Source of the DNA: Palleronia sp. LCG004 | GTDB taxonomy: Bacteria; Pseudomonadota; Alphaproteobacteria; Rhodobacterales; Rhodobacteraceae | DNA length: 64,000 nucleotides | Direction: 5' to 3' | Assembly (NCBI RefSeq): GCF_032931615.1 | Contig: NZ_CP136760.1 | Coordinates: 347,170-411,169 of the forward strand | Part shown: positions 22,572-37,301 of the stretch, one piece after another | Layout of the letters: each line of letters opens with the position of its first letter | How positions within the stretch are numbered: position 1 is the first letter of the stretch | The notes under the pieces: model-generated | Told to the model about the DNA's origin: nothing | Database searches by the model: none | Seen by the model: the letters and a program-made list of their open reading frames with translations, nothing else | Position numbers and translations under genes: made by a program

Positions 22572-23573
22572 ATGACATCCAGGATACTTGCCGCCACGCT
22601 CGCGCTTATCGCGACACCGCTCGCCGCCCAGGATTACCGGAGCGTGATATACGTCTCGCCCAACCCGGTCGGCATCAACGACTTCCTGCAGCTCGGGGCC
22701 GACGGCACGCGCCGCATCGCCGAGGAGATGGGCCTCGAGGCCAAGATCTACGAAAGCTCCGATCCGACGGTGAAGCTGCAGAACCTCGAAGCCGCGGCGC
22801 GCGAGGCCGACATCGTCGTCGTCATCACCTTCGAGTTCGACGAGATCCTGACCGAGATCGCCACCGAGCATCCCGAAACGGCCTTCCTGCAGGTCGACAG
22901 CTGCGCGCCCGACGCGCCCGAGAACGTCCATTGCTCGGTCTTCCGCGAACACGAAACCGCGTTCCTCGCGGGGGCCGAGGCGGCGCTGACGTCCGAAACG
23001 GGGACGATCGGTGCCATCGGCGCGGTCGATATCCCCTTCATCCACCGCTACACGGATGCCTTCATCGCCGGCGCACGCCACGCGGTGCCCGACATCGACG
23101 TGGCGCCGACCCTCTGGATCGGGGGCGACAATCCCTTCGCCGATCCCGCGCGCGGACAGCAGCGGGCGACCATCATGGCATCGGGCGGGGCCGACCGGAT
23201 CCTGACCGCCGCCTCCGGCACCAATGGCGGCGTGTTCCGCGCGCTCGAGGACTTCCCCGGCGCGGCGGGCTTCGGCGTCGACGTGAACCAGTGCCTTCAG
23301 GCACCCGGAACCGTCATGGACAACATCGAGAAGAACACCGACGTCGTGATCGAGATGGGCGTGCGCGGCATCATCGAAGGCACGCAGCCCGCCCTCGTGG
23401 CGCTCGGCCTTGCCGATGACGGCATGACGCTGACCGGGCTCGAACCGGGGGTCGAGGACAGCGAGTGCCTCATCGCCGAGTATCCCGAGGTCATCGAACA
23501 GGTCGCGGCCCTTCGCGACGCCATCGTCGCGGGCGAGATCGAGGTCGCCGATCCGATGCAGATGGCGCGCTAG
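22572..23573 (+). CDS. BMP-family ABC transporter binding protein
   Basis: A 333-residue periplasmic protein with a short signal peptide (MTSRILAATLALIATPLAAQ). The BMP/PnrA fold is recognisable from GINDFLQLGADGTRR, the VVVITFEFDE strand, FREHETAFLAGAEAA and GTIGAIGAVDIPFIHRYTDA. Members bind purine or pyrimidine nucleosides. The transporter and nucleoside hydrolase downstream support a nucleoside or nucleoside-like ligand. It is probably not lipid-anchored because no lipobox Cys is present. Confidence 0.9.
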   Translation: MTSRILAATLALIATPLAAQDYRSVIYVSPNPVGINDFLQLGADGTRRIAEEMGLEAKIYESSDPTVKLQNLEAAAREADIVVVITFEFDEILTEIATEHPETAFLQVDSCAPDAPENVHCSVFREHETAFLAGAEAALTSETGTIGAIGAVDIPFIHRYTDAFIAGARHAVPDIDVAPTLWIGGDNPFADPARGQQRATIMASGGADRILTAASGTNGGVFRALEDFPGAAGFGVDVNQCLQAPGTVMDNIEKNTDVVIEMGVRGIIEGTQPALVALGLADDGMTLTGLEPGVEDSECLIAEYPEVIEQVAALRDAIVAGEIEVADPMQMAR

Positions 23574-23587
23574 CGCGGATCGCGGCG

Positions 23588-25099
23588 ATGAACTGGGAGA
23601 TCGAGACCGTCGGGCTGACCAAGCGGTTCGGAGCGCTGACGGCCACCGATCATGTCGACCTGCGCGTCGCCCGTGCCGAGGTTCACGCGGTCATGGGCGA
23701 GAACGGCGCGGGCAAGTCGACGCTGATGTCGATGCTCTACGGTCTCGTCGCACCGGACGAGGGCGAGATCGTGATCGACGGGCGGCAGGTCCGCTTCGGC
23801 TCGGCGCTCGATGCGATCGACCACGGGCTCGGCATGGTGCACCAGGCCTTCAAGCTGTTCGAGGATCTGACCGTCTGGGAGAACGTCGTCATGGGGGCCG
23901 AGCCGCGACGCCGCGGGTTTCTCGACCGGGGACGCGCGATCGCGGCGGTGCGCGCGCTGACCGAGCGTTACGACCTGCGGGTCGACGTGACGCGCCGGGT
24001 CCGCGAGCTTTCGGTCGGCATCCGCCAGCGGGTCGAGATCCTCAAGGCGCTCTATCGCGATGCCCGCATCCTGATCCTGGACGAGCCCACCGCCGTCCTC
24101 ACCCCGCAGGAACGCGACGGCCTCTTCGGCGTCATCCGGACGCTGCGGGCGGACGGGCGGACGATCCTCTTCGTCACGCACAAGCTGCACGAGGTGATGG
24201 AGATCACAGACAATGTGAGCGTGCTGCGCCACGGCAAGCTGGTCGCGCGGATGAAGACGCGCGAGAGCAGCCCCGAAGCCATCATCGGCGCGATGACCGG
24301 CCGGTCGGTCAATCTCGACGTCGCCAAGGCACCGGCGCGTCCCGGACAGGTGGTCTTGAAGCTCGACCGCGTCTCGGTCGGCGCGGGGCCCAAGCCTGTC
24401 GTCGACGCGGTGTCCTTCGAGGTGCGCGCGGGCGAGATCGTCGGCATCGCGGGCGTCGCCGGCAACGGCCAGAGCGAGCTGATCGAGGCGGTCGCGGGCC
24501 TGCGCGCCGCATCCGGCCGCATCGCGCTGAAGGATCGCGACCTCGGAGGGCTCGACGTGGCCGGACGCCGCCGCGCGGGGCTGGCCTACATCCCCGAGGA
24601 TCGCGCCACGACCGGCACGGCGGCCGGGGCCAGCGCCGCCGAGAACATGCTGATGGGCCGTCAGGACGATCCGTCGCTGGTGCGCGGGCCGCTTTTGAAC
24701 GAGACCGCCATCGCGGCCCATTCAAGGCACCTCATCGCAACGAACGACATCCGCATCCCGTCGGAGCGGAGCGACGTGGCGACGCTGTCGGGCGGCAACC
24801 TGCAGAAGGTCGTCATCGCGCGCGAGCTCGACCGCGGCGCGCCGCTTCTGATCGCCGAGCAGCCGACGCGCGGCGTCGATGTAGGCGCGATCGAGGCGAT
24901 CCATGCGCGCCTTGTGGCCGAGCGTGACGCGGGCCGCGCGATCCTGCTGGTCTCGGCCGAGATGTCCGAGATCCTCGGGCTCTCGGACCGGATCCTCGTC
25001 ATGTACGAAGGCCGGATCCTTGCCGATATTCCCGCCGGAACGGCGAGCGAGGCGCAACTCGGCCTGCTGATGGCCGGTCGTGCGGAACCCGCGGCATGA
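23588..25099 (+). CDS. Nucleoside-type ABC transporter ATPase (two nucleotide-binding domains)
   Basis: A 503-residue double ATPase. Domain 1 has Walker A GENGAGKST, DEPTAVLTP and an H-loop in FVTHKLHE, with a slightly altered signature LSVGIRQR. Domain 2 has a degenerate Walker A (GVAGNGQSE) but a good signature LSGGNLQK and EQPTRGVD, the normal asymmetry of the RbsA/YufO group. It energises the two permeases encoded immediately downstream. Confidence 0.93.
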   Translation: MNWEIETVGLTKRFGALTATDHVDLRVARAEVHAVMGENGAGKSTLMSMLYGLVAPDEGEIVIDGRQVRFGSALDAIDHGLGMVHQAFKLFEDLTVWENVVMGAEPRRRGFLDRGRAIAAVRALTERYDLRVDVTRRVRELSVGIRQRVEILKALYRDARILILDEPTAVLTPQERDGLFGVIRTLRADGRTILFVTHKLHEVMEITDNVSVLRHGKLVARMKTRESSPEAIIGAMTGRSVNLDVAKAPARPGQVVLKLDRVSVGAGPKPVVDAVSFEVRAGEIVGIAGVAGNGQSELIEAVAGLRAASGRIALKDRDLGGLDVAGRRRAGLAYIPEDRATTGTAAGASAAENMLMGRQDDPSLVRGPLLNETAIAAHSRHLIATNDIRIPSERSDVATLSGGNLQKVVIARELDRGAPLLIAEQPTRGVDVGAIEAIHARLVAERDAGRAILLVSAEMSEILGLSDRILVMYEGRILADIPAGTASEAQLGLLMAGRAEPAA

Positions 25100-26133
25100 A
25101 GGCCGCGCTCGAGATCCTGCGACCCGGTCCCGTCGCGCTCGCCGTCCTGTCGGGCCTCGTGATCGGCGCGCTCATGCTGCTCGCCTCGGGCGACGACCCC
25201 GTCGCGGCCTACCGGGAGATCGTCGAGGGGGCCTTCGCCCCGCGAAACTGGTCCAACACGCTCTCATGGGCCATCCCGCTCGTGGGCATGACGCTCGTCG
25301 CCGCGATCCCGCTGCGCGGTGGCATGGTCAATCTCGGCGGCGACGGCCAGATCGTGATCGGCGGTTTCGCCGGAGCGGTCGTGCCGGTCTACCTCGCCGA
25401 TCTACTGCCCCTGCCTGGCGTCCTGCTCATCTGCGCGGCGATGCTCTGCGCGATGCTGGCCGCGGGGCTCTGGGCTGCGCTCGCGGCCCTGGGCGAGACG
25501 CGGCTGGGCATCCCCATGCTCGTGACTTCCCTGCTGCTGTCCTATCCGGCCATCGGCATCACCTCATGGGCGACCGGCTTTCCGCTCCGCGACACCGCGA
25601 CCGGGCTGCCGCAGACCCGGGCGATCCCGGCCGCCGCCGAACTCCCCGACCTGCCCGGGCCGCTCAGCACGGGGCTCGTCCTCATGCTGATCGTGGTGGC
25701 GACCGTCATCTTCGTCGATCGCCGGACCGTCGCCGGATACGAGCTCAGGATGCGCGGGCTGAACCGTCGCTTCGCCGAATATGGCGGCGTCCGGACCGAA
25801 CGGCAGAGCATCGCCACGATGTTCGCGAGCGGGGCGATCGCGGGGCTGGTGGGCGCGATCGTGATCCTCGAGACGCATCACCGTTTCCAGAACGGCGCGC
25901 TCGTCTCGCCGGGCTACACCTGGTCGGGCCTGATGGCCGCGCTTCTGGCAGGGGGCAACCCGCTCAAGGCGGTGATCGCGGGCTTCTTCTTCGCCGCGTT
26001 GCAGACGGGCGGCTTCGCGATGCAGCGCGAGATCCAGGTCCCGCGCGTCCTGTCGATGGTGCTGCAGGCAATCATCATCCTCTTCGTCTCGCTTCGCTAC
26101 GGGACCGCGCGTCCGGGACGGCGCAAGCGATGA
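25096..26133 (+). CDS. Nucleoside-type ABC transporter permease 1 (YufP/NupB-like)
   Basis: A 345-residue membrane protein of the BPD_transp_2 type, starting in an ATGA overlap with the ATPase gene. It has about eight to ten hydrophobic helices and the family GGMVNLGGDGQIVIGG segment near residue 75 and AEYGG/VRTERQSIATMF near 230. It forms a heterodimer with the next protein. Confidence 0.92.
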   Translation: MKAALEILRPGPVALAVLSGLVIGALMLLASGDDPVAAYREIVEGAFAPRNWSNTLSWAIPLVGMTLVAAIPLRGGMVNLGGDGQIVIGGFAGAVVPVYLADLLPLPGVLLICAAMLCAMLAAGLWAALAALGETRLGIPMLVTSLLLSYPAIGITSWATGFPLRDTATGLPQTRAIPAAAELPDLPGPLSTGLVLMLIVVATVIFVDRRTVAGYELRMRGLNRRFAEYGGVRTERQSIATMFASGAIAGLVGAIVILETHHRFQNGALVSPGYTWSGLMAALLAGGNPLKAVIAGFFFAALQTGGFAMQREIQVPRVLSMVLQAIIILFVSLRYGTARPGRRKR

Positions 26134-27035
26134 ACATGCTCAACGCCTTCACCGTCAACGCCACCGTCCAGGGCATGACGCCGATCCTGCTGGCGGCGCT
26201 CGCGGGCGTGCTCTGCGGGCGTGTGGGCGTCTTCAATATCGCACTCGAAGGCAAGATCCTGATCGGGGCCTTCTTCGCCATCGCCGGAAGCTTCTACACC
26301 GGATCGGCGCTCGGCGGCATCGCGGCGGGCATGCTCGCCACCATGATCTTCGCCTCGATCCTCGCGCTCGGCGTGACGCGGTTCGGCGGCGACAGCATCG
26401 TGATCTGCATCGGAATGAACCTCCTGGCCTCGGGGCTGACCGCCTACCTCCTGGGGCAGATGTTCGGGCAGTCGGGCGTGTTCTCCGATCCCGCCATCGC
26501 CGAGCTCGACCGCATCGTCATTCCGCAGATCGCGACCGTTCCCTGGATCGGCTGGATTCTGTCGCGGCAGACGCCGATCACCTACGCCTCATGGGTGCTG
26601 GTCCTCGTCATCGCTGTCATTCTCTTTCGCACGCCCCTCGGGCTGCGGCTTCGCGGGATCGGGCAGAACCCCGACGCCGCGCGCACCCTCGGCATCGACG
26701 TCGACCGGACGAAGTTCTGGACCGTGATCGTCGCGGGCGCGCTCTGCGGCCTCGCGGGCGCGCAGCTTTCGATCGGAACGGTCGGCATCTTCGCCGAGGA
26801 CATGAGCGCGGGGCGCGGCTGGATCGCGGTCGTGGCCGTGATGCTGGCGCGGGACAATCCGATCTGGGCGGCGGCGGTCTGCCTCGTCTTCGCCTTTGCC
26901 GACACGCTGTCGGTACAGCTTCAGGCGCAGGGGCTCCCGAACCAGCTGACCGACACGGTGCCCTACGTCATCACGCTCGCCGCGCTGGTGCTGGGGGCCC
27001 TGCGCGGACGACGCCGGCGACTGGCGCCGGCCTGA
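26130..27035 (+). CDS. Nucleoside-type ABC transporter permease 2 (YufQ/NupC-like)
   Basis: A 301-residue membrane protein whose ATG overlaps the previous stop. The family signature GVFNIALEGKILIGAFF is near residue 34 and GLRLRGIGQNPDAARTLGID near 170. Multiple hydrophobic helices span the rest. Together with the upstream permease it forms the nucleoside channel. Confidence 0.92.
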   Translation: MNMLNAFTVNATVQGMTPILLAALAGVLCGRVGVFNIALEGKILIGAFFAIAGSFYTGSALGGIAAGMLATMIFASILALGVTRFGGDSIVICIGMNLLASGLTAYLLGQMFGQSGVFSDPAIAELDRIVIPQIATVPWIGWILSRQTPITYASWVLVLVIAVILFRTPLGLRLRGIGQNPDAARTLGIDVDRTKFWTVIVAGALCGLAGAQLSIGTVGIFAEDMSAGRGWIAVVAVMLARDNPIWAAAVCLVFAFADTLSVQLQAQGLPNQLTDTVPYVITLAALVLGALRGRRRRLAPA

Positions 27036-27049
27036 ATTAAGGACAAGGA

Positions 27050-27994
27050 ATGACACGCAAGATCCTGATGGATGTCGATACCGGCATCGACGACGCGCTC
27101 GCCATCTACTACGCGCTGCGCCATCCCGAACTCGACCCGGTGGGCTTCACCTGCGTCTACGGCAATACCGATGTCGAGATCGCGACCGCGAACACCTTGC
27201 GCATCCTCGATCTCGCGGGCCGCGCGGACATTCCCGTGGCGGCCGGCGCGGCGCGCTCGCTCATCAATCCCTATACGCGCGAGGCCGATTTCGTCCATGG
27301 CGGCAACGGCCTCGGCGATGTCGACCTGCCCGAGCCCTCGGCGACCGCCACCGACGAACATGCCGCCGACTTCATCATCCGCACGATCAAGGAGATGCCG
27401 GGAGAGATCACGCTCTGCCCCGTCGGGCCGATGACGAACGTGGGCATCGCGCTGGCCAAGGCACCCGAGATCGCGGGGCTGGTCGCATCGGTGATCGTGA
27501 TGGGATCGACCCTGTCGCATCCGGGCATCCAGGGCGTCGCACGTCCGATGGTGGACGCGAATTTCCACAACGACCCCGAAGCGGCGCATATCCTCATGCA
27601 ATCCGGCGCGCCGATCACGGTCGTGGGGATGGACGCCACGATGACCACGCTGATGTCGCGCGAGATGATGGCCGATATCGAGGCGAACGGCACCGATGCG
27701 TCGCGCATGCTGATGCGCATCGCCGAATTCTATGTCCGTTCCTACGAGACGATGCATCCCGGCATCGCGGGCTGCCCGCTGCACGACCCGCTTGCCGTGG
27801 CGGCCTGCCATGCCCCCGACCTCCTGCAGCTCGAACGGATGCGGATCGACATCGAGCTGTCGGGCCACCTGACCCGCGGACAGGCCATCCCGGATCGCCG
27901 CCCCGCCGGGCTCGCCCGTGCCAATTGCGCGGTCGCGACCGGGGTCGATGCCCCCCGCTTCGAGGCGATGTTCCACGAGACGATGCTTCTCTGA
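27050..27994 (+). CDS. Inosine-uridine-preferring-type nucleoside hydrolase
   Basis: A 314-residue enzyme that cleaves the N-glycosidic bond of ribonucleosides to free base and ribose. The calcium-binding N-terminus DVDTGIDDA is intact, as are the CVYGNTDVE loop, VHGGNGLGD, VGPMTNVGIAL and the late HDPLAVA with the metal-ligand Asp. The conserved Asn-His pair in MVDANFHNDPEA is typical. It ends the BMP transporter operon and acts in the cytoplasm on the imported nucleoside. Base preference is not evident. Confidence 0.93.
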   Translation: MTRKILMDVDTGIDDALAIYYALRHPELDPVGFTCVYGNTDVEIATANTLRILDLAGRADIPVAAGAARSLINPYTREADFVHGGNGLGDVDLPEPSATATDEHAADFIIRTIKEMPGEITLCPVGPMTNVGIALAKAPEIAGLVASVIVMGSTLSHPGIQGVARPMVDANFHNDPEAAHILMQSGAPITVVGMDATMTTLMSREMMADIEANGTDASRMLMRIAEFYVRSYETMHPGIAGCPLHDPLAVAACHAPDLLQLERMRIDIELSGHLTRGQAIPDRRPAGLARANCAVATGVDAPRFEAMFHETMLL

Positions 27995-28255: not shown

Positions 28256-28271
28256 GGTAAAGCGGTTTACC
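28256..28271. promoter_or_regulatory. LacI-type operator of the lacI-ABC-BtpA-TenA operon
   Basis: GGTAAAGCGGTTTACC is a palindrome with 6-bp arms and the central CG typical of LacI/GalR operators. It ends 9 bp before the ATG of the LacI gene, so binding would block transcription of regulator and operon together. Confidence 0.7.
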
Positions 28272-28280
28272 GGGTGTGAA

Positions 28281-29321
28281 ATGGCGAATCTCAGCGATGT
28301 TGCGAAGAAGGCAGGCGTTTCGGTCGCGACCGTTTCGCGTTTCCTGAACGGCTCGCTCTCGCTTCCCGAGGCGCGGGCGCAGCAGATCCGCGATGCCGTG
28401 GCCGAGCTTCGCTACGTACCCAATCCCCACGCCCGGCGGCTGTCGCGCGGACGCTCCGACGCGGTGGGCCTCGTCGTTCCCGACATCGCGGGTCCGTTCT
28501 TCTCCCATCTCGTCGCCGCGATCGAGGAGGAGGCCGACCGGCTCGATCTGGGGCTCGTCCTGCACGCCACCCTGAACCGCCCCGCGCGCGAGATGCGCTA
28601 TCTCGACGGGCTCAGGATGCGTCACCTCGACGGGATGATCTTCGTGACGAACCGCGCCGCGGACGACACGCTCCTCGACGCGGTAAGTTCCTGCCGCAAT
28701 CTCGTTTTGCTCGACGAGGACGTGCCCGGCGCGCGGGTTCCCAAGGTCTTCTGCGACAACGAGGCGGGCGGACGCATGGCCGGCGCACATCTGGCCGCGA
28801 TGGGTCACCGGTCGGTCCTCTTCGTCGGCGGCATCGAGGAGATGATCTCGGGCAGGCGACGGCTCCGCGGGTTCGAGCAGGCGATGGCCGAAGGGTCCGA
28901 CGGCCCCGTCCGCATCGACCGGGTCCGCGGCACCTACACGCCCGAGACGGGCCGCGAGGCCGGACGCCGGTTCCTGCGGATGGACCCCCGCCCCACGGCG
29001 ATCTTCGCGTCGTCGGACGAGATCCTGATCGGACTGATCGAGGTGCTGCGCGATGCGCTGGTCTCGATCCCCGGCGACGTCTCGATCCTGGGTTTCGACG
29101 ATGTCGGGCCCCTCCACCTCTTTTCTCCGCCCGTCACCGCGATCCGCCAGCCGGTCCGCGATCTGGGGCGAAGCGCTCTCGGGATGCTGCTCGAGACGCT
29201 GAAGGACGACACGGGCGAAACGGCTTCGACAGAAAAGCTGCTTCCCGTGACCCTGGTCGAGCGGGCCTCCGTCGCCCCGCCGGCCGGAAACGCCAAGCGA
29301 CGCTCAACAGGAAGGACATGA
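28281..29321 (+). CDS. LacI/GalR family regulator
   Basis: A 346-residue regulator. The N-terminal HTH and hinge helix are clear (LSDVAKKAGVSVATVSRFLNG, then PNPHARRLSRGRS), followed by the periplasmic-binding-like effector domain (AVGLVVPDIAGPFFSHL, SILGFDDVGP). The 18 codons of open frame upstream overlap the operator and are excluded. The gene is followed after 1 bp by a sugar-type binding protein gene, so the effector is probably the transported glycoside or its product. Confidence 0.92.
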   Translation: MANLSDVAKKAGVSVATVSRFLNGSLSLPEARAQQIRDAVAELRYVPNPHARRLSRGRSDAVGLVVPDIAGPFFSHLVAAIEEEADRLDLGLVLHATLNRPAREMRYLDGLRMRHLDGMIFVTNRAADDTLLDAVSSCRNLVLLDEDVPGARVPKVFCDNEAGGRMAGAHLAAMGHRSVLFVGGIEEMISGRRRLRGFEQAMAEGSDGPVRIDRVRGTYTPETGREAGRRFLRMDPRPTAIFASSDEILIGLIEVLRDALVSIPGDVSILGFDDVGPLHLFSPPVTAIRQPVRDLGRSALGMLLETLKDDTGETASTEKLLPVTLVERASVAPPAGNAKRRSTGRT

Positions 29322-29322
29322 C

Positions 29323-30258
29323 ATGACCATCAAGGGAACGGCCAGCCGGATGGCCCTCGCGCTCGCAGGCGCGACGGCCCTCACCGCAAGCGCGGCTTTC
29401 GCGCAGGAGGACGGCAAGACCTTCGCGCTCGTGCAGATCAACCAGCAGGCGCTCTTCTTCAACGAGATGAACCGCGGGGCCGAGCAGGCCGCCGAGGAGC
29501 TCGGCGCGGAACTGGTGATCTTCAACGCCAACAACGAGGCGTTCCAGCAGAACTCCGCGATCGAGACCTACATCACGCAGGGCGTCGACGGGATCGCCGT
29601 CGTGGCGATCGACGTGAACGGCATCATGCCCGCCGTCGAGCAGGCGGATGCCGCGGGCATTCCCGTGGTGGCCATCGACGCGATCCTGCCCGACGGGCCG
29701 CAGGCCGCGCAGATCGGCGTCGACAACGCCCAGGCCGGCGCGGACCTCGCCGCCCATATCGGCGAGACGATGGATGGCGGAGAGATGTCGCTCGGCGTGG
29801 TCGGCGCGCTCAACTCATATATCCAGAACGTGCGCCGCGACGGCTTCGTCGAGAACCTGCCCGACGGCGTGACCGTCGTGAACACCGTCGACGGCCAGAA
29901 CATCCAGGACGTGGCGCTGAACGCGTCCGAGAACCTGCTGACGGCCAATCCGGGCATGAACGCGATCTACGGCACCGGCGAGCCCGCGCTGATGGGCGCC
30001 ATCGCCGCCGTCACCTCGCAGGGGCGCACCGGCGACGTGTCGATCTACGGCTGGGACCTGACCGAACAGGCCATCGCCGGGATCGACGAAGGCTATGTCG
30101 AGGCGGTGATCCAGCAGGATCCGGCCGAGATGGGTGCCGCGGCGATCCGCGCGCTCGCCACCCTGGCCGATGGCGGCGAGGTGGAGGCCGAGATCTCGGT
30201 CCCCGTGACGATCGTCACGCAGGACAATGTCGACGAGTTCCGGTCCCTCTTCGAATGA
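29323..30258 (+). CDS. Sugar ABC transporter binding protein (ribose/fructose type)
   Basis: A 311-residue periplasmic protein with a signal peptide of about 27 residues ending SAAFAQ. The Peripla_BP_4 pattern is present: ALFFNEMNRGAEQAAEELG, then YITQGVDGIAVVAID, IGVDNAQAG and YGWDLTEQAIAGIDEGYVEA. GGAAGG precedes the ATG. It supplies the ligand to the single-NBD transporter encoded downstream; the ligand is likely a pentose, ketose or glycoside. Confidence 0.92.
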   Translation: MTIKGTASRMALALAGATALTASAAFAQEDGKTFALVQINQQALFFNEMNRGAEQAAEELGAELVIFNANNEAFQQNSAIETYITQGVDGIAVVAIDVNGIMPAVEQADAAGIPVVAIDAILPDGPQAAQIGVDNAQAGADLAAHIGETMDGGEMSLGVVGALNSYIQNVRRDGFVENLPDGVTVVNTVDGQNIQDVALNASENLLTANPGMNAIYGTGEPALMGAIAAVTSQGRTGDVSIYGWDLTEQAIAGIDEGYVEAVIQQDPAEMGAAAIRALATLADGGEVEAEISVPVTIVTQDNVDEFRSLFE

Positions 30259-31046
30259 CGGCGACCGACACGGATATCCGCACCGCGTCGGAGGGGAGAG
30301 ATCTCCCCTCCGACGGAAAGCCGCTGATGTCCCTCAGGGGCATCAGCAAGACCTTCGGATCGCATCAGGCGCTGCGCGGCGTCGATCTCGACATCTTCGC
30401 GGGCGAATGCGTGGGCCTCATCGGCGACAACGCCGCCGGGAAAAGCACTCTGTCGAAGATCATCGCCGGAACGCATGTTCCCGATGGCGGGCAGATCAGG
30501 CTGCGCGACGAGCAGGTCAGCTTCCAGTCCCCCGCCGATGCACGGGCCCGTCATATCGAGATGGTCTATCAGGACCTGAGCCTCTGCGATCATATCGACG
30601 TCGTGGGCAACCTGTTCCTCGGGCGCGAGATGAAGAAGGGGCCCTTCCTCGATCAGGAGCGGATGATCGAACGCGCCGAGGAGATGCTCGCCCGGCTCGA
30701 AATCCGCATCCCGCGCCTGACCGCCAAGGTCGAGAAGCTCTCGGGCGGACAGCGGCAGGCCATCGCCATCGCCCGCGCGGCAAGCTTCGAGCCCGACATC
30801 CTCATCATGGACGAGCCGACTTCCGCGCTCGCCGTGGCCGAGGTGGAGGCGGTGCTCGAACTCATCAACCGGGTGAAGGCGCGCGGCGTCGGCGTGATCC
30901 TCGTAACCCACCGGATGCAGGACCTCTTCCGCGTCTGCGACCGGATCGCGGTCATGTACGAGGGCACCAAGGTCGCCGAGCGCCGCACCTCCGAGACCAA
31001 TCTCGAGGAACTGGTCGACCTCATCGTCGGAAAGGGAGGTCACTGA
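30255..31046 (+). CDS. Sugar ABC transporter ATPase, single-domain FrcA type
   Basis: A 263-residue ATPase with one nucleotide-binding domain, unlike the double RbsA type. Walker A is GDNAAGKST, signature LSGGQRQA, Walker B region LIMDEPTSALAV and H-loop LVTHRMQD. The first 24 residues before MSLRGISKTFG are unusual and possibly disordered. Its ATG overlaps the binding-protein stop. It presumably works as a homodimer under the permease. Confidence 0.92.
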   Translation: MTATDTDIRTASEGRDLPSDGKPLMSLRGISKTFGSHQALRGVDLDIFAGECVGLIGDNAAGKSTLSKIIAGTHVPDGGQIRLRDEQVSFQSPADARARHIEMVYQDLSLCDHIDVVGNLFLGREMKKGPFLDQERMIERAEEMLARLEIRIPRLTAKVEKLSGGQRQAIAIARAASFEPDILIMDEPTSALAVAEVEAVLELINRVKARGVGVILVTHRMQDLFRVCDRIAVMYEGTKVAERRTSETNLEELVDLIVGKGGH

Positions 31047-32056
31047 TGTCCACGACCTATACCGAACGCGTCGCCGGATCGGCGTTCCGCGACTTCGTCA
31101 CCGACTACGCCCAGGTCCTGTCGATCGCGACGTTCTTCATCGTCTGCCTTGTCTTCTTCGGGGCCATGTCGGACGTGTTCCTGAGCACGGCGAACCTTCT
31201 CAACATCGTCCGGCAGGCCGCGCCGATCCTCGTCGTGGCCGTCGCGATGACGCTGGTCATCACGACCGCGGGGATCGACCTGTCGGTCGGCAGCCAGGTC
31301 GCCTTCGTCAACGCGCTGACCGCGATCACGATCGCCGCGGGCGTGCCGTGGCCCATCGCGATCCTCCTGATGCTCGCCGTCGGCGCGGTGATCGGGGGGG
31401 TGCAGGGCTGGTTCGTGGCCTATCAGGGGATCCCCGCCTTCATCGTGACGCTCGCGGGCCTCTCGATCTACCGCGGTGCGGCGCTCCTCCTGACCGAGGG
31501 GTATTCGATCCCGATCCAGGGCGCGGACGGGTTCCTCTGGCTCGGGCGCGGCACGCTTCTCGGCATTCCGGTGCCCGCCATCATCGCGATCCTCGTCGTG
31601 ATCCTGGGCTTCGTCGTGATGTGGCGCACGCCCTACGGACGGCAGATCATCGCCTGCGGATCGAACCTCGAGGCCGCGCGGCGCGTCGGCATGCCCGCCC
31701 GCCGGGTCGTCAACTCCGTCTATGTCCTGGCCGGCGTGGCGAGCGCGCTGGCGGCACTTCTGCTCGCGGCGCGCCTCGGGTCGGGCTCCTCCAACGCGGC
31801 GCAGGGGTTCGAGCTTCAGGTCATCGCGGGCGTGGTCCTGGGCGGCACCTCCCTCATGGGGGGCAAGACTTCTATGATCGGGACCGTGCTCGGCACGCTG
31901 ACCATCGCGGTGATCGGAAACGGGCTGATCCTGATGCATGTCTCTCCCTTCTTCACGCAGATCGTGACCGGCATCATCATCCTGCTCGCCATCTGGATGA
32001 ACACCCGGCTCTTCACCGGATCGTGGAAGATCCGGAAGGGGGCGCCGAATGTCTGA
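31046..32056 (+). CDS. Sugar ABC transporter permease, FrcC/RbsC type
   Basis: A 336-residue membrane protein starting at a TGATG overlap. Eight or more helices are visible and the BPD_transp_2 motifs VITTAGIDLSVGSQVAF, GWFVAYQGIPAFIVTLAG and VLGGTSLMGGKTSMIGTVLG are present. It is expected to dimerise. The stop overlaps the start of the phosphotriesterase-like gene by 8 bp, tying transport to that enzyme. Confidence 0.92.
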   Translation: MSTTYTERVAGSAFRDFVTDYAQVLSIATFFIVCLVFFGAMSDVFLSTANLLNIVRQAAPILVVAVAMTLVITTAGIDLSVGSQVAFVNALTAITIAAGVPWPIAILLMLAVGAVIGGVQGWFVAYQGIPAFIVTLAGLSIYRGAALLLTEGYSIPIQGADGFLWLGRGTLLGIPVPAIIAILVVILGFVVMWRTPYGRQIIACGSNLEAARRVGMPARRVVNSVYVLAGVASALAALLLAARLGSGSSNAAQGFELQVIAGVVLGGTSLMGGKTSMIGTVLGTLTIAVIGNGLILMHVSPFFTQIVTGIIILLAIWMNTRLFTGSWKIRKGAPNV

Positions 32057-33134
32057 ACTCTCCAGCGCGCATACGAACTCGGGCCTCGTCATGACGGTCG
32101 ACGGCCCCATCGCCTCCTCCGAGATGGGGGTGACGCTCATGCACGAGCATCTGCAGAACGATTGCAGCTGCTGGTGGAACCCGCCCCGGACCGAGGATCG
32201 CCGGCATCTGGCCGACGGCCCCGTCCGGATCGAGATCCTGTCGGAGCTGCGGCAGGACCCGTTCGTGAACCGCCACAACATCGCGCTCGACGACCTCGAC
32301 CTCGCGGTCGAGGAGCTCGAGGAGTTCGTGCGGCTCGGCGGGCAAACAATCGTCGATCCGACCTGCCGCGGCATCGGACGCGACCCCGCGAAGCTGCGCG
32401 AGATCTCGGCCCGGACGGGCCTCCAGATCGTCATGGGGGCGGGCTACTACCTCGCCTCGTCGATGCCCGACGCGGTCGAGGGCAAGTCCGCCGACGACAT
32501 CGCCGACGAGATCGTCGAGGAGGCGCTGACGGGCGTCGATGGCACGGATGCGAAGATCGGCCTCATCGGCGAGATCGGCGTGTCGGGCGACTTTCTCGAG
32601 ATCGAGGAGCGGTCGCTCGTGGGGGCCGCGCGGGCGCAGGTCCGCACGGGCCTGCCGCTGATGGTCCATCTTCCGGGCTGGTTCCGCCACGCCCACAAGG
32701 TCCTCGACATCGTGGAGCGCGAAGGGGCCGATCTCCGCCAGACGGTGCTTTGCCACATGAACCCGTCATTCGACGACGTGGCGTATCAGACCGAATTGGC
32801 CGAACGGGGTGCCTTCCTCGAATTCGACATGATCGGGATGGACTTCTTCTATGCCGATCAGGGGGTGCAATCCCCCTCCGACGACCAGGTGGCCCGCGCG
32901 ATCGTCGGGCTTGCCGACGCGGGCCATCTCGACCGGCTGCTCCTGTCGCAGGACGTGTTCATCAAGATGATGCTCACCCGCTACGGCGGCAACGGCTACG
33001 CGTTCGTCCTGCGTCATTTCCTGCCGCGGCTCGCGCGCCACGGAATGCCGGCCGAGACCGCGATGAGCATGCTCACCCACAACGCACGCAGTGTGTTCGA
33101 CACCGAAAATACCCTGAAAGGATCCCCCGCATGA
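32049..33134 (+). CDS. Phosphotriesterase-family metal-dependent hydrolase
   Basis: A 361-residue amidohydrolase-superfamily protein without a signal peptide. Metal-site residues are visible: H32 and H34 in MHEHLQ, a bridging Glu in IGEIGVSG where true phosphotriesterases have a carboxylated Lys, His in MVHLPGW, His in LCHMN, and Asp in LLSQDVF. The Glu-type bridge is known in E. coli Php and some lactonases. It could hydrolyse a sugar lactone or a phosphoester of the imported compound. True organophosphate hydrolysis is not implied. Confidence 0.88.
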   Translation: MSELSSAHTNSGLVMTVDGPIASSEMGVTLMHEHLQNDCSCWWNPPRTEDRRHLADGPVRIEILSELRQDPFVNRHNIALDDLDLAVEELEEFVRLGGQTIVDPTCRGIGRDPAKLREISARTGLQIVMGAGYYLASSMPDAVEGKSADDIADEIVEEALTGVDGTDAKIGLIGEIGVSGDFLEIEERSLVGAARAQVRTGLPLMVHLPGWFRHAHKVLDIVEREGADLRQTVLCHMNPSFDDVAYQTELAERGAFLEFDMIGMDFFYADQGVQSPSDDQVARAIVGLADAGHLDRLLLSQDVFIKMMLTRYGGNGYAFVLRHFLPRLARHGMPAETAMSMLTHNARSVFDTENTLKGSPA

Positions 33135-33895
33135 CGATCAAGGCTCTTCTCGTCGGAGAAAGCTGGGTCACTTCCGAAACCCACTATAAGGGGTTCGACC
33201 AGTTCGGCAGCGTTCATTTCCATCTCGGCGCGCAGCCGATGGTGGACGCGTTGAAGGATACGGAGGTCGAGCTCGACTGGATGACGGCGCACGAGGCCGC
33301 CGAGAAGTTCCCGTTCGAGCGCGAGGGCCTCGATGCCTACGACGTGCTGATCCTGTCGGATATCGGGTCCAACACCTTCCTCCTGCCGCCCGATGTCTGG
33401 CTGCGCTCCAAGCCCGTACCGAACCGCCTGAACCTCATCCGCGACTGGGTGGCCGATGGCGGCAACCTCATGATGGTGGGGGGCTATTTCAGCTTTCAGG
33501 GGATCGACGGTCGCGCACGCTGGCGCCGGACCCCGGTCGAGGATGCTCTTCCCGTCCGCTGCCTGCCCTGGGACGACCGCGTGGAGATCCCCGAAGGCGC
33601 GACGCTCCAGTCCGTGGCCTCGGACCACCCGGTGATGTCGGGCTTCCCCGCAGGCGACTGGCCGCTGCTTCTGGGCGTGAACGAGGTCGAACCGAAGGAC
33701 GACGCGACGGTCGTCGCGCGCCTGCCCGATCATCAGGGCGGCCATCCCCTCATCGTGACGGGCAGCTACGGCAAGGGCCGGAGCGCCGTCTGGACCAGCG
33801 ATCTCGGTCCGCACTGGCTGCCTCCGGCCTTCTGCGAATGGGACGGCTACCCCGTGCTCTGGCGCAACCTGATCTCCTGGCTCGTCGCCCGGTGA
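33131..33895 (+). CDS. GATase1-like (ThuA-related) protein of unknown function
   Basis: A 254-residue protein starting in an ATGA overlap. It resembles the putative glutamine amidotransferase-like family (GATase1_like): an N-terminal Rossmann-like strand KALLVGESWVT, the central DVLILSDIGSN, GGNLMMVGGYFSFQG and the C-terminal GKGRSAVWTSDLGPHW. The classical catalytic Cys-His-Glu triad of amidotransferases is not apparent, since the nucleophile-elbow position reads VGGYFS. It is likely an enzyme or binding protein of sugar metabolism rather than a glutaminase. Confidence 0.75.
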   Translation: MTIKALLVGESWVTSETHYKGFDQFGSVHFHLGAQPMVDALKDTEVELDWMTAHEAAEKFPFEREGLDAYDVLILSDIGSNTFLLPPDVWLRSKPVPNRLNLIRDWVADGGNLMMVGGYFSFQGIDGRARWRRTPVEDALPVRCLPWDDRVEIPEGATLQSVASDHPVMSGFPAGDWPLLLGVNEVEPKDDATVVARLPDHQGGHPLIVTGSYGKGRSAVWTSDLGPHWLPPAFCEWDGYPVLWRNLISWLVAR

Positions 33896-33941
33896 TCCGC
33901 CCCTCTTTCGGGCATGCCGACCATTCCGGGCGCGGCGGGAA

Positions 33942-33966
33942 CCGCGGCGCCCGGATCGGGCCGCGG
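33942..33966 (+). other. Hairpin in the only wide gap of the BtpA-TenA operon
   Basis: Arms CCGCGGC and GCCGCGG around an 11-base loop, within the 181-bp gap between the GATase1-like gene and the BtpA gene. The rest of the gap holds no recognisable gene. It may be an RNA-processing or attenuation element. Confidence 0.4.
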
Positions 33967-34076
33967 ACCGGCGATCGCCGCCACGGCCCCCACTCCGGAC
34001 ACCTCGTTGAAGGGCGCGTATCGGGTGGCGAAAGCGCGCAGATCCGACATTCCGTCTCACGCATGAAAGGCGACAG

Positions 34077-34913
34077 ATGACCGTCATATCCAGCAGATCC
34101 TCCGGTGCAATCGAGGACATCTTCGGACGCCCGAAAGCCCTGATCGGAATGATCCATTGCCCGCCCTTCCCCGGCTCGCCCCGGTATCGCGGCGCGTCGC
34201 TCGAGGAGATCTGCGATGCCTGCCTCCGGGATGCCGAGCGGCTGATCGAGAACGGGATGCACGGGCTCATCGTCGAGAATCACGGCGACATTCCCTTTTC
34301 CAAGCCCGAGGATATGGGGCCCGAAACCTCCGCCTTCCTCGCGGTCGTGACGCGGCGGATCCTCGACCGGTTCGACGTGCCGGCGGGCATCAACGTGCTG
34401 GCCAACGCCCCGATCCCGGCATTCGCCGCCGCGGCCGCGTCCGGCGCATCCTTCATCCGGGTCAACCAATGGGCCAACGCCTATGTCGCGAACGAGGGCT
34501 TCATGGAGGGGCGCGCGGCCGAGGCGATGCGATACCGCTCCGCGCTCAGGGCCGAGCATATCCGCGTCTTCGCCGATTCCCACGTCAAGCACGGCGCGCA
34601 TGCGATCACGGCCGACCGCACGATCGTGGAGCTGACCCGCGACCTCGCCTTCTTCGACGCGGATTGCGTCATCGCCACCGGCCAGAGGACCGGCAACAGC
34701 GCCACGACCGAGGAGATCACCGAGATCGCGAGCGCCACGCATCTCCCGCTGCTGGTGGGCTCCGGCGTGACCGAGGACAACGTCGTCGAGATCCTGGGCC
34801 TGACGGATGGCGTGATCGTCGCCTCGTCGCTGAAGGAGGACGGCGTCTGGTGGAACCCGGTCGAGCCCGCCCGCGTCAAGAGCTTCACCGCCCGCGCGGC
34901 GGACGCGCTGTGA
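34077..34913 (+). CDS. BtpA/SgcQ family TIM-barrel protein
   Basis: A 278-residue protein of the BtpA/SgcQ family. The family opening LIGMIHCPPFPGSPRY is intact, followed by ENHGDIPF, GINVLANAP, FIRVNQWANAYV, FADSHVKHGAH and the barrel end LLVGSGVTEDNV. AAAGG precedes the ATG. BtpA was named for photosystem I biogenesis in cyanobacteria, but bacterial SgcQ-type genes sit in sugar or nucleoside transport operons, which fits here. A role in breaking or rearranging a glycoside is inferred only. Confidence 0.87.
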   Translation: MTVISSRSSGAIEDIFGRPKALIGMIHCPPFPGSPRYRGASLEEICDACLRDAERLIENGMHGLIVENHGDIPFSKPEDMGPETSAFLAVVTRRILDRFDVPAGINVLANAPIPAFAAAAASGASFIRVNQWANAYVANEGFMEGRAAEAMRYRSALRAEHIRVFADSHVKHGAHAITADRTIVELTRDLAFFDADCVIATGQRTGNSATTEEITEIASATHLPLLVGSGVTEDNVVEILGLTDGVIVASSLKEDGVWWNPVEPARVKSFTARAADAL

Positions 34914-35557
34914 CGGAGCGTCTGTCGGATCGCTGCCTGCGCGAGAACCGGGACCGGTTCGACCGGATGGTCGATCACAGGTTCGTCCGCGATATCGAGG
35001 CCGACCGCCTGCCGCCCGAGGTCTTCGATCGCTACCTCCTCATCGAAGGCGCGTTCGTCGCGACCGCCATCTCGATCTTCGCCTTCGCAACGATCAAGGC
35101 GCAGGACATCGAGGATCGGCGCAAGTCCATCGCGGTGCAGGAGGCGCTCGCCAACGAGCAGATCCCCTATTTCGAGCAGGTTCTCCTGCGTCGCGGGATC
35201 GCCGCCGATCCCGCCGTCACCGCCGATCCGCGCGTCGTGGCCTTCGACCGCGGAATGCACGATATCGCGGCCGGGGGCACGTTCGCCGAGATCGTCGCGG
35301 CGATGTTCGGGGCCGAATGGATGTACATGACGTGGTGCAGGCGGGCCGGCGCGCATCCGAACGGGGACCCCGACATCCGCGCCTGGGTGGATCTCCATAC
35401 CGAACCCGGCTTCGTCGACGGGGCCCACTGGCTCAGGTCGCGCCTGGATATCGCGGGCACCGGGATGGACGAGGACGAGGCGGCCGCCTGCAGCCGCATC
35501 TTCGGGATGGTGCAGGATCTGGAATACGCCTTCCACGACGCCGCCTATCCCGGCTGA
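34910..35557 (+). CDS. TenA-family protein, TenA_E-like
   Basis: A 215-residue all-helical protein starting at GTG in a GTGA overlap with the BtpA gene. TenA proteins hydrolyse aminopyrimidines from thiamin breakdown. The active-site Cys of TenA_C (in the CPW segment) is absent; the region reads FGAEWMYMTW. The late Glu of the TenA_E type is kept (DLEYAFHDAAYPG). It therefore resembles the TenA_E subgroup, whose substrates are less certain. Placement at the end of a sugar-ABC operon suggests it cleaves an amino-heterocycle part of the imported molecule. Confidence 0.82.
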   Translation: MTERLSDRCLRENRDRFDRMVDHRFVRDIEADRLPPEVFDRYLLIEGAFVATAISIFAFATIKAQDIEDRRKSIAVQEALANEQIPYFEQVLLRRGIAADPAVTADPRVVAFDRGMHDIAAGGTFAEIVAAMFGAEWMYMTWCRRAGAHPNGDPDIRAWVDLHTEPGFVDGAHWLRSRLDIAGTGMDEDEAAACSRIFGMVQDLEYAFHDAAYPG

Positions 35558-35602: not shown

Positions 35603-36415
35603 TTATCGCGACTGCAGGAATTCCTGCAGGCCAGCCAGATCGTCGGTGTTGATACGGTCCACGCCCGCATCGTCAAGTTCGGTCCAGATCGCCTCCCTTG
35701 CCGGGCCGGCTTCGTCGGGCGTCGCCCAGAACCGGACCTGCCAGCCCTTGTCGTGCGCGGTCGACACGATCTCGTCCAGTCTGGCGCGTTCCTCGTCGGG
35801 CATCTTGCCCTCGCCGGTCCAGTCGAAATGGTTCGTCCAGTTGTCGCTCAGCAGCGGCATGAAGGATGCGGGCGTGTCGGATTCGAGATCGTCCATGCGC
35901 CCGTCATAGCCCGCATGGCGGACGTCCTGATCCATCATCATCTCGCGCGGCCGGTTGCCCGAGATCACGGCCGTCACCGCGCCGGGTTCCATGCTCCCGT
36001 CCCGGTAGGTGGTCAGCATGTCGGAATAGCCCTCGAGGACCGACGAAAGGACCTCGTAGGTCTCGGCCCCGTCCGACTTGATGTCGATCAGCAGCATCGC
36101 CGGTCGATCCATCTCGGCGGAATAGACCTTTCCGTCATTCTCCTCGACGCGTTTGCGCAACGGATCGAGATAGAGGCTCTGCAAGGTGCGTCCCTCCTCG
36201 ATCTCGTCCTCGTCATGGGCGACGAGCAGTTCACCGCCGACGAGCCAGATATCTGCCTCGAATCCGGTGAACCCGTGCGCGAGCGCATCGAGCAGCGGCC
36301 TCTCGTGTTCGTAATCGTTGTGGGCATGCGCCTTTGCCAGCGGCATCACGTCGTCTGCGGCCATCGCAGATGTCGCCGTCAACATCATCGCGGCGGCGGT
36401 CATCGTCTTCAGCAT
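35603..36415 (-). CDS. Secreted phosphatidylinositol-PLC/glycerophosphodiesterase-like protein
   Basis: A 270-residue protein with a signal peptide (MLKTMTAAAMMLTATSAMAA). The mature start AKAHAHNDYEHERPLLDAL, then GFEADIWLVGGELLVAHD and LLIDIKSDG, follow the GDPD/PI-PLC barrel pattern with paired His, Glu and Asp at the first strands. GGGAG precedes the ATG. It is periplasmic or secreted. As the last gene of the AfuABC-like operon it could release a phosphorylated polyol from a glycerophosphodiester outside the inner membrane. Confidence 0.85.
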   Translation of the reverse strand: MLKTMTAAAMMLTATSAMAADDVMPLAKAHAHNDYEHERPLLDALAHGFTGFEADIWLVGGELLVAHDEDEIEEGRTLQSLYLDPLRKRVEENDGKVYSAEMDRPAMLLIDIKSDGAETYEVLSSVLEGYSDMLTTYRDGSMEPGAVTAVISGNRPREMMMDQDVRHAGYDGRMDDLESDTPASFMPLLSDNWTNHFDWTGEGKMPDEERARLDEIVSTAHDKGWQVRFWATPDEAGPAREAIWTELDDAGVDRINTDDLAGLQEFLQSR

Positions 36416-36470
36416 GTCATTCTCCCGATCTGACTCAAATTGACGGGTGATGCGAGATAGGGAAGGAGTT

Positions 36471-37301
36471 TCACCCGCGATTGTCGCGGCCTCCCCAAAC
36501 CGCGTCGTCGGTCAATTGCGAAAGCTCTAGGATCTGTTCGTAACACCGGGGTGACGCGCCCAGCACGGGCGCGGGCCGGAGCATCGCCTCGCCCTGCGGG
36601 AACGGCAGCACGCGGCCGCCCGCTTCCTCGATCAGGCAATAGGCGGCCATGCAGTCCCACGCGCTCATCCGCGGCTCGACATATCCGACCAGCCGACCCG
36701 CCGCGACCCAGGCCAGCATCAGCGCGCCCGACCCGTACCGAGTCCAGCTCGCCCCGGCCTCCATGAAGGCCGCCAGCATGTCGCCGACATTCCCGTGCGG
36801 CACCCGGTCGTTCGCGCCGATCCCGAGCAGCCCCGTCGAAAGGTCGAACCGGTCCGTGACACGTATGGCCGACCCGTTGAGCGTCGCGCCGCGACCCCTC
36901 GCGGCGACGAATGTCTCGCCCAGGATCGGGGCATGGATCACGCCGATCAGCGGGCCCGCATCGTCGCAGGCCCCGACGCAGACGCACCAGCCGGGCAGAC
37001 CCGCGAGGAAGGGTGCCGTGCCGTCGATCGGATCGATCACCCATGTGAGGCCGGACGTCCCCTCCAGATGACCGTGCTCCTCGCCCAGCTGTGCGTCGTC
37101 CGGAAACGCCTCCGACAGCCCGGTTCGGATCATTCTCTCGACATCGCGATCCGCCTCGCTCACCATATCCTGCAGGACGCGCTTGGTCTCGACCGCCAAT
37201 GTCTCGCGCCGGTCGAAATACTCCTTGGCGAGAGCGCCGGCCTCGCGGGCGATGCGTTCGGCGACCGCGAGACGCGCGTCGGCATCAAGGGCCCCGCTCA
37301 C
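36471..37301 (-). CDS. Inositol monophosphatase family phosphatase
   Basis: A 276-residue magnesium-dependent sugar/inositol phosphatase. Metal-ligand motifs are LGEEHG, DPIDGTAPF (family WVIDPLDGT-like) and AWDCMAAYCLIEEAGGRV. The start is GTG in an overlap with the ATPase stop. It is cytoplasmic and would dephosphorylate the compound imported by the transporter encoded upstream, or histidinol phosphate or fructose-1,6-bisphosphate if unrelated. The operon argues for an imported sugar or inositol phosphate. Confidence 0.9.
   Translation of the reverse strand: MSGALDADARLAVAERIAREAGALAKEYFDRRETLAVETKRVLQDMVSEADRDVERMIRTGLSEAFPDDAQLGEEHGHLEGTSGLTWVIDPIDGTAPFLAGLPGWCVCVGACDDAGPLIGVIHAPILGETFVAARGRGATLNGSAIRVTDRFDLSTGLLGIGANDRVPHGNVGDMLAAFMEAGASWTRYGSGALMLAWVAAGRLVGYVEPRMSAWDCMAAYCLIEEAGGRVLPFPQGEAMLRPAPVLGASPRCYEQILELSQLTDDAVWGGRDNRG

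Follow-up and report, generated by a model that had tools for sequence, protein, structure and literature searches.

We analysed a 64,000-nucleotide stretch of the Palleronia sp. LCG004 genome (contig NZ_CP136760.1, positions 347,170 to 411,169; hereafter the window), which carries at 28256-35557 an operon joining a LacI repressor and a sugar-type ABC importer to a phosphotriesterase-family (PTE) hydrolase and to GATase1-like, BtpA/SgcQ and TenA proteins. The gene set is conserved as a unit, it is preceded by a conserved operator sequence, and it lacks in Palleronia a PfkB-type kinase partner, an operon-type kinase being encoded elsewhere in the same genome. The operon contains no classical amidotransferase or thiaminase motif. 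We favour, with middling confidence, the view that the operon is under LacI repression and serves the catabolism of a glycoside with amide, amine or ureide nitrogen in its non-sugar part, and we infer that such an amide- or ureide-bearing glycoside is broken down in a phosphorylation-dependent manner. An earlier note on this DNA had proposed salvage of a glycosylated heterocycle or a phosphorylated sugar ester; the conserved unit and its amide hydrolase neighbours fit a glycosylated nitrogen compound, whereas the links that the note drew to an adjoining nucleoside operon and to thiamin salvage did not hold up.

That note had asked whether the genes occur together elsewhere, and they do: in most of the nearest loci, on a Pantoea plasmid and in genomes outside the class. 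A search of genome contigs with the GATase1-like protein confirmed 220 loci, and the 80 best of these made up the locus sample. A core of LacI, substrate-binding protein (SBP), ATPase, permease, PTE, GATase1-like protein and BtpA was present in 73 of the 80, a tally that is biased towards this arrangement by the choice of loci on GATase similarity and that counts against our reading to that extent. The core was incomplete in the other seven (L015, L021, L044, L054, L074, L087 and L091), three of which (L015, L021 and L087) span just 9.8-11.3 kb, with neighbours possibly cut off; in two core loci (L056 and L077) the set is split into two divergently oriented groups. At the score limits set, all 73 core loci had a PfkB-type kinase as companion and 58 a TenA (a TenA fragment in L078 fell under the limit), while an M20 hydrolase of carbamoylase type stood beside the core in 45 and one of ArgE-like type in 5; only 3 of the 73 had neither TenA nor M20. 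This conservation of core and companions supports the glycoside reading. The operon was found in many Rhizobiales and Rhodobacterales as well as on the Pantoea plasmid, and its closest relatives are those of Palleronia abyssalis (L013) and Roseivivax jejudonensis (L014), with shared proteins 66-93% identical and TenA the least conserved. Its distribution among near relatives is nevertheless sparse: a PTE match at E 1e-60 occurred in 4 of 146 genomes, that of Palleronia included.

A less biased sample was obtained by searching 398 Pseudomonadota genomes with BtpA (E 1e-20), which matched in 18, Palleronia included. We took the neighbourhoods of 10 of the other 17, the seven omitted having a BtpA 28-33% identical. 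Among the nine with at least 54% identity, a recognised kinase stood beside BtpA in eight, and PTE and GATase1-like genes in seven. One of these loci, L164, has a GATase1-like gene and an Amidase (PF01425) beside BtpA and is without a recognised kinase or PTE; L162, whose BtpA is 47% identical, has a weak kinase match and neither PTE nor GATase1-like gene. In the open-licence PMC literature we found no paper on the gene set as a whole, and none that assigns BtpA/SgcQ, PF07090, the Cys-less TenA clade or this PTE group a settled function within an operon of this kind.

The eight genes lie in the same orientation (plus strand) at 28281-35557, as previously described, and Pfam backed the family of each of the eight proteins. 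The earlier inventory was sound for these genes and had overlooked the operator as well as the PfkB kinase and M20 hydrolase of relatives: position 28256, where the note lets the region begin, is not the lacI start but the first base of a palindromic LacI-type operator sequence, GGTAAAGCGGTTTACC (28256-28271, no strand), which lies 9 bases ahead of the lacI ATG at 28281. Five of the seven gene junctions overlap by 1-8 bases, the lacI/SBP gap is 1 base, and the gap between the GATase1-like and BtpA genes is 181 bases. The pattern GGTAAANNNNTTTACC has one exact match in the 3.87 Mb genome, the operator at 28256; this uniqueness alone proves little, because a reversed control pattern also matches once, and one-mismatch sites elsewhere in the genome numbered 3 per strand versus 2 for the control. 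We then counted a TAAAN4TTTA core between -200 and +100 of the start of the lacI open reading frame (ORF) in core loci with lacI on the plus strand, and found it in 65 of 71, versus 2 of 3345 control windows of equal size. Two copies 13 bases apart occur in 56 of these 65 loci, and a single copy in the Palleronia window. The conserved sequence is a predicted operator, at which the LacI of the operon (28281-29321, plus strand, 346 amino acids (aa); PF00356, PF13377) would bind. This repressor matched 18 NCBIfam models, each time under the curated cut-off; among the matches listed (for the ATPase, the best 25 of 188), BtpA/SgcQ was the only NCBIfam model whose cut-off any of the eight proteins reached.

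In 64 of the 80 loci, among them L013 and L014, a convergent kinase gene on the minus strand separates the GATase1-like and BtpA genes. At this site the window has the 181-base gap (33896-34076, no strand), and searching the window by tblastn with the kinases of three relatives gave chance-level matches only (best E 1.0). The gap DNA next to BtpA has a faint likeness to the 5' end of the kinase gene: it aligned to the L014 kinase start with a score of 216, versus 173 +/- 6.2 (maximum 193) for 100 base-shuffled gaps, and to the L013 kinase start with 204, versus 176 +/- 6.9 (maximum 200) for as many. The match at the protein level was not significant (43, versus a shuffled mean of 32.9 and a maximum of 48 in 200). 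These scores are suggestive of a kinase remnant in the gap, at the DNA level only.

A second contig of the same genome, C4, encodes a kinase 72.5% identical to the Poseidonocella operon kinase and 53% identical to that of L013. In a tree it fell among the operon kinases of Rhodobacterales, apart from the L013/L014 pair and on a long branch of its own (support 100/97 at a 14-row node, 87-88 at nearer nodes), and it scored under the ribokinase cut-off (TIGR02152, 174.4 versus 299.65). The simplest reading of these relationships is that it may be the displaced partner of the operon. C4 is probably a plasmid, because the kinase lies beside repA, repB and repC. We rejected control of this kinase by the same LacI, as a scan of its 19.5 kb surroundings (L124) that allowed up to three mismatches detected no operator. 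Within this region (L124:8808-13859) the kinase stands between repABC and a group of RibD_C, methyltransferase-domain and GTP cyclohydrolase II genes, which we take to resemble toxoflavin-type clusters.

BtpA (34077-34913, plus strand, 278 aa) reached the cut-off of the BtpA/SgcQ family (TIGR00259, 206 versus 153.4 bits) and missed that of the photosystem I biogenesis BtpA (NF045918, 185.6 versus 400). A sequence search of solved structures returned a single match (E 0.049), and an AlphaFold2 model (mean pLDDT 80.3, pTM 0.85; stretches 70-79 and 173-177 below pLDDT 50) has eight strands alternating with helices. Phosphate-binding barrels hold phosphate after strands 7 and 8. In the model, the conserved loops G228-S-G230 and A249-S-S-L-K253 follow strand 7 (225-227) and strand 8 (245-248), respectively, and BtpA so modelled would be a (beta-alpha)8 barrel with putative phosphate-type loops. 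A carbohydrate kinase gene is next to BtpA in plasmid records of Haloferax, Thermus, Rhizobium and Sulfitobacter and two genes away in Mesorhizobium; none is listed in a Labrenzia record, whose gene table is possibly incomplete. This pairing, the modelled barrel with its conserved loops and the operator sequence also support the glycoside reading. Escherichia coli SgcQ belongs to the same family and likewise has sugar-uptake genes alongside, but the sgc operon (sgcABCEQX) uses phosphotransferase system (PTS) uptake, and the accessible part of PMC13343008 names no PTE, GATase, TenA or M20 in it. That part of the paper describes induction of sgc on some nitrogen-containing substrates and reports no growth defect for the sgc mutants tested.

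We propose the following scheme for the glycoside reading. The SBP, ATPase and permease would import the intact glycoside, as their families suggest, and the PfkB kinase, encoded in the operon of relatives and elsewhere in the Palleronia genome, would phosphorylate its sugar. BtpA, with its frequent sugar-kinase pairing and putative phosphate-type barrel loops, would act on the resulting phosphosugar. The PTE, joined in relatives by M20, would cleave C-N bonds of the aglycone, TenA would release amine nitrogen, and the GATase1-like protein, which is no classical amidotransferase, would perform a further step. LacI would control its own operon through the predicted operator. The phosphorylated sugar ester of the earlier note is still conceivable, but a kinase would place phosphorylation after entry.

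The PTE (32049-33134, plus strand, 361 aa; PF02126) has as its nearest solved relatives 3k2g (598 bits), 3rhg (218 bits) and 9efa (211 bits; named phosphotriesterase-related protein). The metal-ligand positions H32, H34, E175, H207, H236 and D302 are present in all 83 aligned sequences, window included, and agree with the PF02126 pattern (HxH, an E or K bridge, H, H, D); position 301, just before the metal ligand Asp302, holds His in 65 of these sequences and Gln in the other 18. Mammalian PTER hydrolyses N-acetyltaurine according to the accessible part of PMC11374699, whose docking section names 3K2G as a PDB entry found by FoldSeek. PTER and the Rhodobacter protein 3k2g, the closest solved relative, share with the window PTE the fold and the two-metal ligand set.

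This kinship with PTER is one source of the amide theme in our reading; the others are the family of the M20 hydrolase and the amide- or ureide-related neighbours, namely the Amidase of L164, allE and M20 in Sagittula, and hydantoinase and nitrilase genes. The M20 proteins of relatives exceeded the hydantoinase/carbamoylase cut-off (TIGR01879; 357 and 387 versus 204). Elsewhere in the Palleronia genome we found no close M20 of the operon type (best 40% identical), and the best ArgE-type M20 by E-value was 34% identical. On a plasmid of Sagittula stellata E-37 (L176:2741-10487), RidA, allE (303 versus a cut-off of 200), M20, kinase, two BtpA and TenA genes lie between two ABC transporter gene sets. 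GATase1-like homologues occur beside an M20 hydrolase, beside a nitrilase-family protein in Klebsiella and, on pTiK224, one gene away from hydantoinase genes.

The GATase1-like protein itself (33131-33895, plus strand, 254 aa) is a secure member of PF07090 (404.2 bits versus a cut-off of 27), as the family call of the earlier note had it, but without the nucleophile Cys: the elbow reads GGYFSF, and all 102 sequences aligned, that of the window among them, have Tyr119. We therefore rejected a class I glutamine amidotransferase, and the public name "glutamine amidotransferase" is misleading, because the nucleophile is absent. STM1381 is among its relatives. Two plasmid records, Arthrobacter pLDW-10 (L107) and a Rhodococcus PD04 plasmid (L098), hold a GATase1-like gene with LacI, a ribokinase-type kinase, phosphoribosyl pyrophosphate synthetase, nicotinate phosphoribosyltransferase, an LLM monooxygenase, a HAD phosphatase and an aldehyde dehydrogenase, and L107 also a nucleoside hydrolase. 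These clusters may serve phosphoribosylation-dependent heterocycle degradation; our literature search yielded nothing decisive on a phosphoribosylation-based role for GATase1-like proteins. A second GATase1-like copy lies beside the operon in L040, L065 and L067, in a group with an ATPase, an SBP and two permeases, and in L054, L056 and L077 the sole copy found is in a separate group of this composition.

Besides the bias of the locus tally, several observations weigh against the glycoside reading. The substrates assigned to the enzymes are putative throughout. Amide hydrolases are not universal: in L161, one of the nine loci with a BtpA at least 54% identical, the transporter, TenA, BtpA and kinase are present, and PTE, GATase1-like protein and M20 are absent. 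An Amidase neighbour turned up a single time, and so did a nitrilase-family neighbour. Where PTER has its substrate residues R204, R233 and H300, the window PTE has G210, P239 and F304 (9efa alignment, in which numbers run 7 above mouse PTER numbers in that part; correspondence counted by hand), and these three are invariant in 83 of 83 sequences. By alignment, the window PTE thus agrees with PTER in fold and metal site and differs in substrate site; the PTE family also includes lactonases. Use of the C4 kinase by the pathway is unproven, because its surroundings lack the operator. At aromatic and acidic positions the SBP matches ribose binders, which makes a plain sugar a possible ligand.

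This SBP (29323-30258, plus strand, 311 aa; PF13407) has a ribose-binding fold, and its nearest solved relative is 5hsg (E 1.2e-100), which we take to be from Klebsiella. Aligned to 2ioy, presumably a ribose-binding protein, it keeps two aspartates, one glutamine and two phenylalanines, but has A, N and G at the places of RbsB Arg90, Arg141 and Asn190, which we take to be ribose-contact positions. The RbsB cut-off lies far above its score (96 versus 337 bits). This pattern suggests a ligand that is sugar-like but modified. The ATPase (30255-31046, plus strand, 263 aa; PF00005) aligns with positions 1-236 of the 492 of the best CUT2 ATPase model and is single-domain, unlike the fused double ATPase of about 500 aa in CUT2 importers; the permease (31046-32056, plus strand, 336 aa) belongs to PF02653. 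The operon thus resembles rbs-type (CUT2) operons in its LacI repressor, ribose-fold SBP and permease and, in relatives, in the ribokinase-family partner kinase, and differs from them in the single-domain ATPase, in the extra enzyme families and in an SBP and a kinase that score under the RbsB and ribokinase cut-offs. Knowing the ligand of one such SBP would assign a role to BtpA/SgcQ, PF07090, the Cys-less TenA and this PTE group together, including the bacterial PTER relative of solved structure, and, by analogy, to the sgc operon of E. coli.

These features bear on a rival that we consider unlikely but credible, in which the operon breaks down a plain sugar or a sugar lactone: the importer would take up the free compound, the PTE would be a lactonase, kinase and BtpA would pass a phosphosugar on to central metabolism, and the activities of TenA and M20 would be incidental. 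The ribose-type SBP is in keeping with this, as is the ordinary sugar setting of distant BtpA proteins, which accompany FGGY kinase, SDR and sugar importers. A phospho-furanose lactonase model does match the PTE, though weakly, at 59.6 bits and far below its cut-off of 630. Several unrelated types of C-N hydrolase adjoin these genes (two of the types seen once only), and the known TenA members described in the accessible sources act on amines; both count against this rival.

We regard as distinctly improbable the breakdown of an N-glycosyl amino acid (Amadori or opine-like), in which the conjugate would be imported and its sugar phosphorylated, BtpA or the GATase1-like protein would carry out deglycation, and PTE and M20 would release the amino acid as N-acyl or N-carbamoyl amino acid hydrolases. 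The M20 families are named after such hydrolysis, BtpA occurs with SIS and a kinase in Mesorhizobium, and on pTiK224 (L100:8989-16569) a GATase1-like gene lies near hydantoinase A/B, SIS and fructoselysine 6-kinase genes. The pTiK224 protein is distant, however (37.5% identical), and the operon is without a SIS deglycase by Pfam. To our knowledge, TenA plays no part in the Amadori pathways described so far.

More of a long shot is a pathway for sugar-bearing ureides or hydantoins, such as ring-opened or oxidised nucleosides, a proposal that draws on M20 family membership, the Sagittula allE context and analogy. An intact N-glycoside would be imported and its cyclic amide opened by the PTE in the manner of an allantoinase; M20, in relatives, would remove the carbamoyl group like an allantoate amidohydrolase, TenA would release ammonia like AllE, and PfkB kinase and BtpA would free the pentose as its phosphate. 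In Palleronia the pathway would be split, a copy on another replicon standing in for the operon's kinase. Relatives share with allantoin catabolism an M20 of the allantoate amidohydrolase/carbamoylase family and, in Sagittula, allE and M20 near BtpA and kinase, whereas the window operon has neither M20 nor allE. If the proposal were true, BtpA would be a phospho-N-glycoside-cleaving or isomerising enzyme, giving the SgcQ family its chemistry.

TenA (34910-35557, plus strand, GTG start; PF03070, 52 bits) bears on the earlier suggestion of salvage of a thiamin-type fragment. TenA_E proteins are defined by the lack of an active-site Cys and by an adjoining Glu. By motif alignment the window protein would fit: Ala135 stands at the place of the thiaminase Cys (which we take to be Cys135 of Bacillus subtilis numbering), A135-E136-W137 is invariant in 30 aligned sequences, and A135-E136 aligns with the AE of 1z72, which is also Cys-less. 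The protein shares with the TenA_E/thiaminase II family the Pfam fold and the carboxylates E46 and E205, but falls in a clade of its own, scores under the salvage-TenA cut-off (TIGR04306, 47.6 versus 130 bits) and is without a thiamin pyrophosphate (TPP) riboswitch, no Rfam family at all being matched at gathering score in the window, L013, L014, L161 or L025. Such control of salvage TenA is common, not universal. The genome has two TPP riboswitches elsewhere, and its other TenA, which bears LLPCFC and reaches the same cut-off (132.4), lies 2.3 kb from one of them. TenA_E proteins act on FAMP according to the accessible part of PMC10470507, which also reports that Sagittula stellata E-37, holding a TenA_E, did not grow on it. 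The BtpA and TenA of this strain form a pair of the operon type (77% and 56% identical to the window proteins), and this TenA may or may not be the published TenA_E. Thiamin-pyrimidine salvage, in which TenA and a YlmB-like M20 turn formyl-aminopyrimidine into HMP, has in its favour the likeness of the pair to Bacillus TenA and YlmB, the FAMP activity of TenA_E proteins and the shared AE motif, but is barely credible and was rejected on the TIGR04306 score, the missing Cys, the lack of a riboswitch here and the riboswitch-linked TenA elsewhere, the LacI, the sugar-type importer and the Sagittula growth result pointing the same way.

The BMP-type nucleoside ABC operon with nucleoside hydrolase that adjoins upstream (22572-27994; families named by reading ORFs) had been suggested as a partner. 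We rejected it as part of the system: within the flanks examined no locus had both BMP and nucleoside hydrolase, and four single matches were weak (39-89 bits). Clustering the flanking ORFs (n=2175) gave ten groups present in at least six loci, by eye mostly transporter parts, a response regulator and SDR. In Marinicella sp. W31 (L016:8900-9996) the PTE and SBP are each present as two ORFs, either broken there or mis-assembled. Downstream of the operon, on the minus strand at 35603-37301, are genes for GDPD-family and inositol-monophosphatase-family proteins, the latter with HisN, under its cut-off, as best NCBIfam match.

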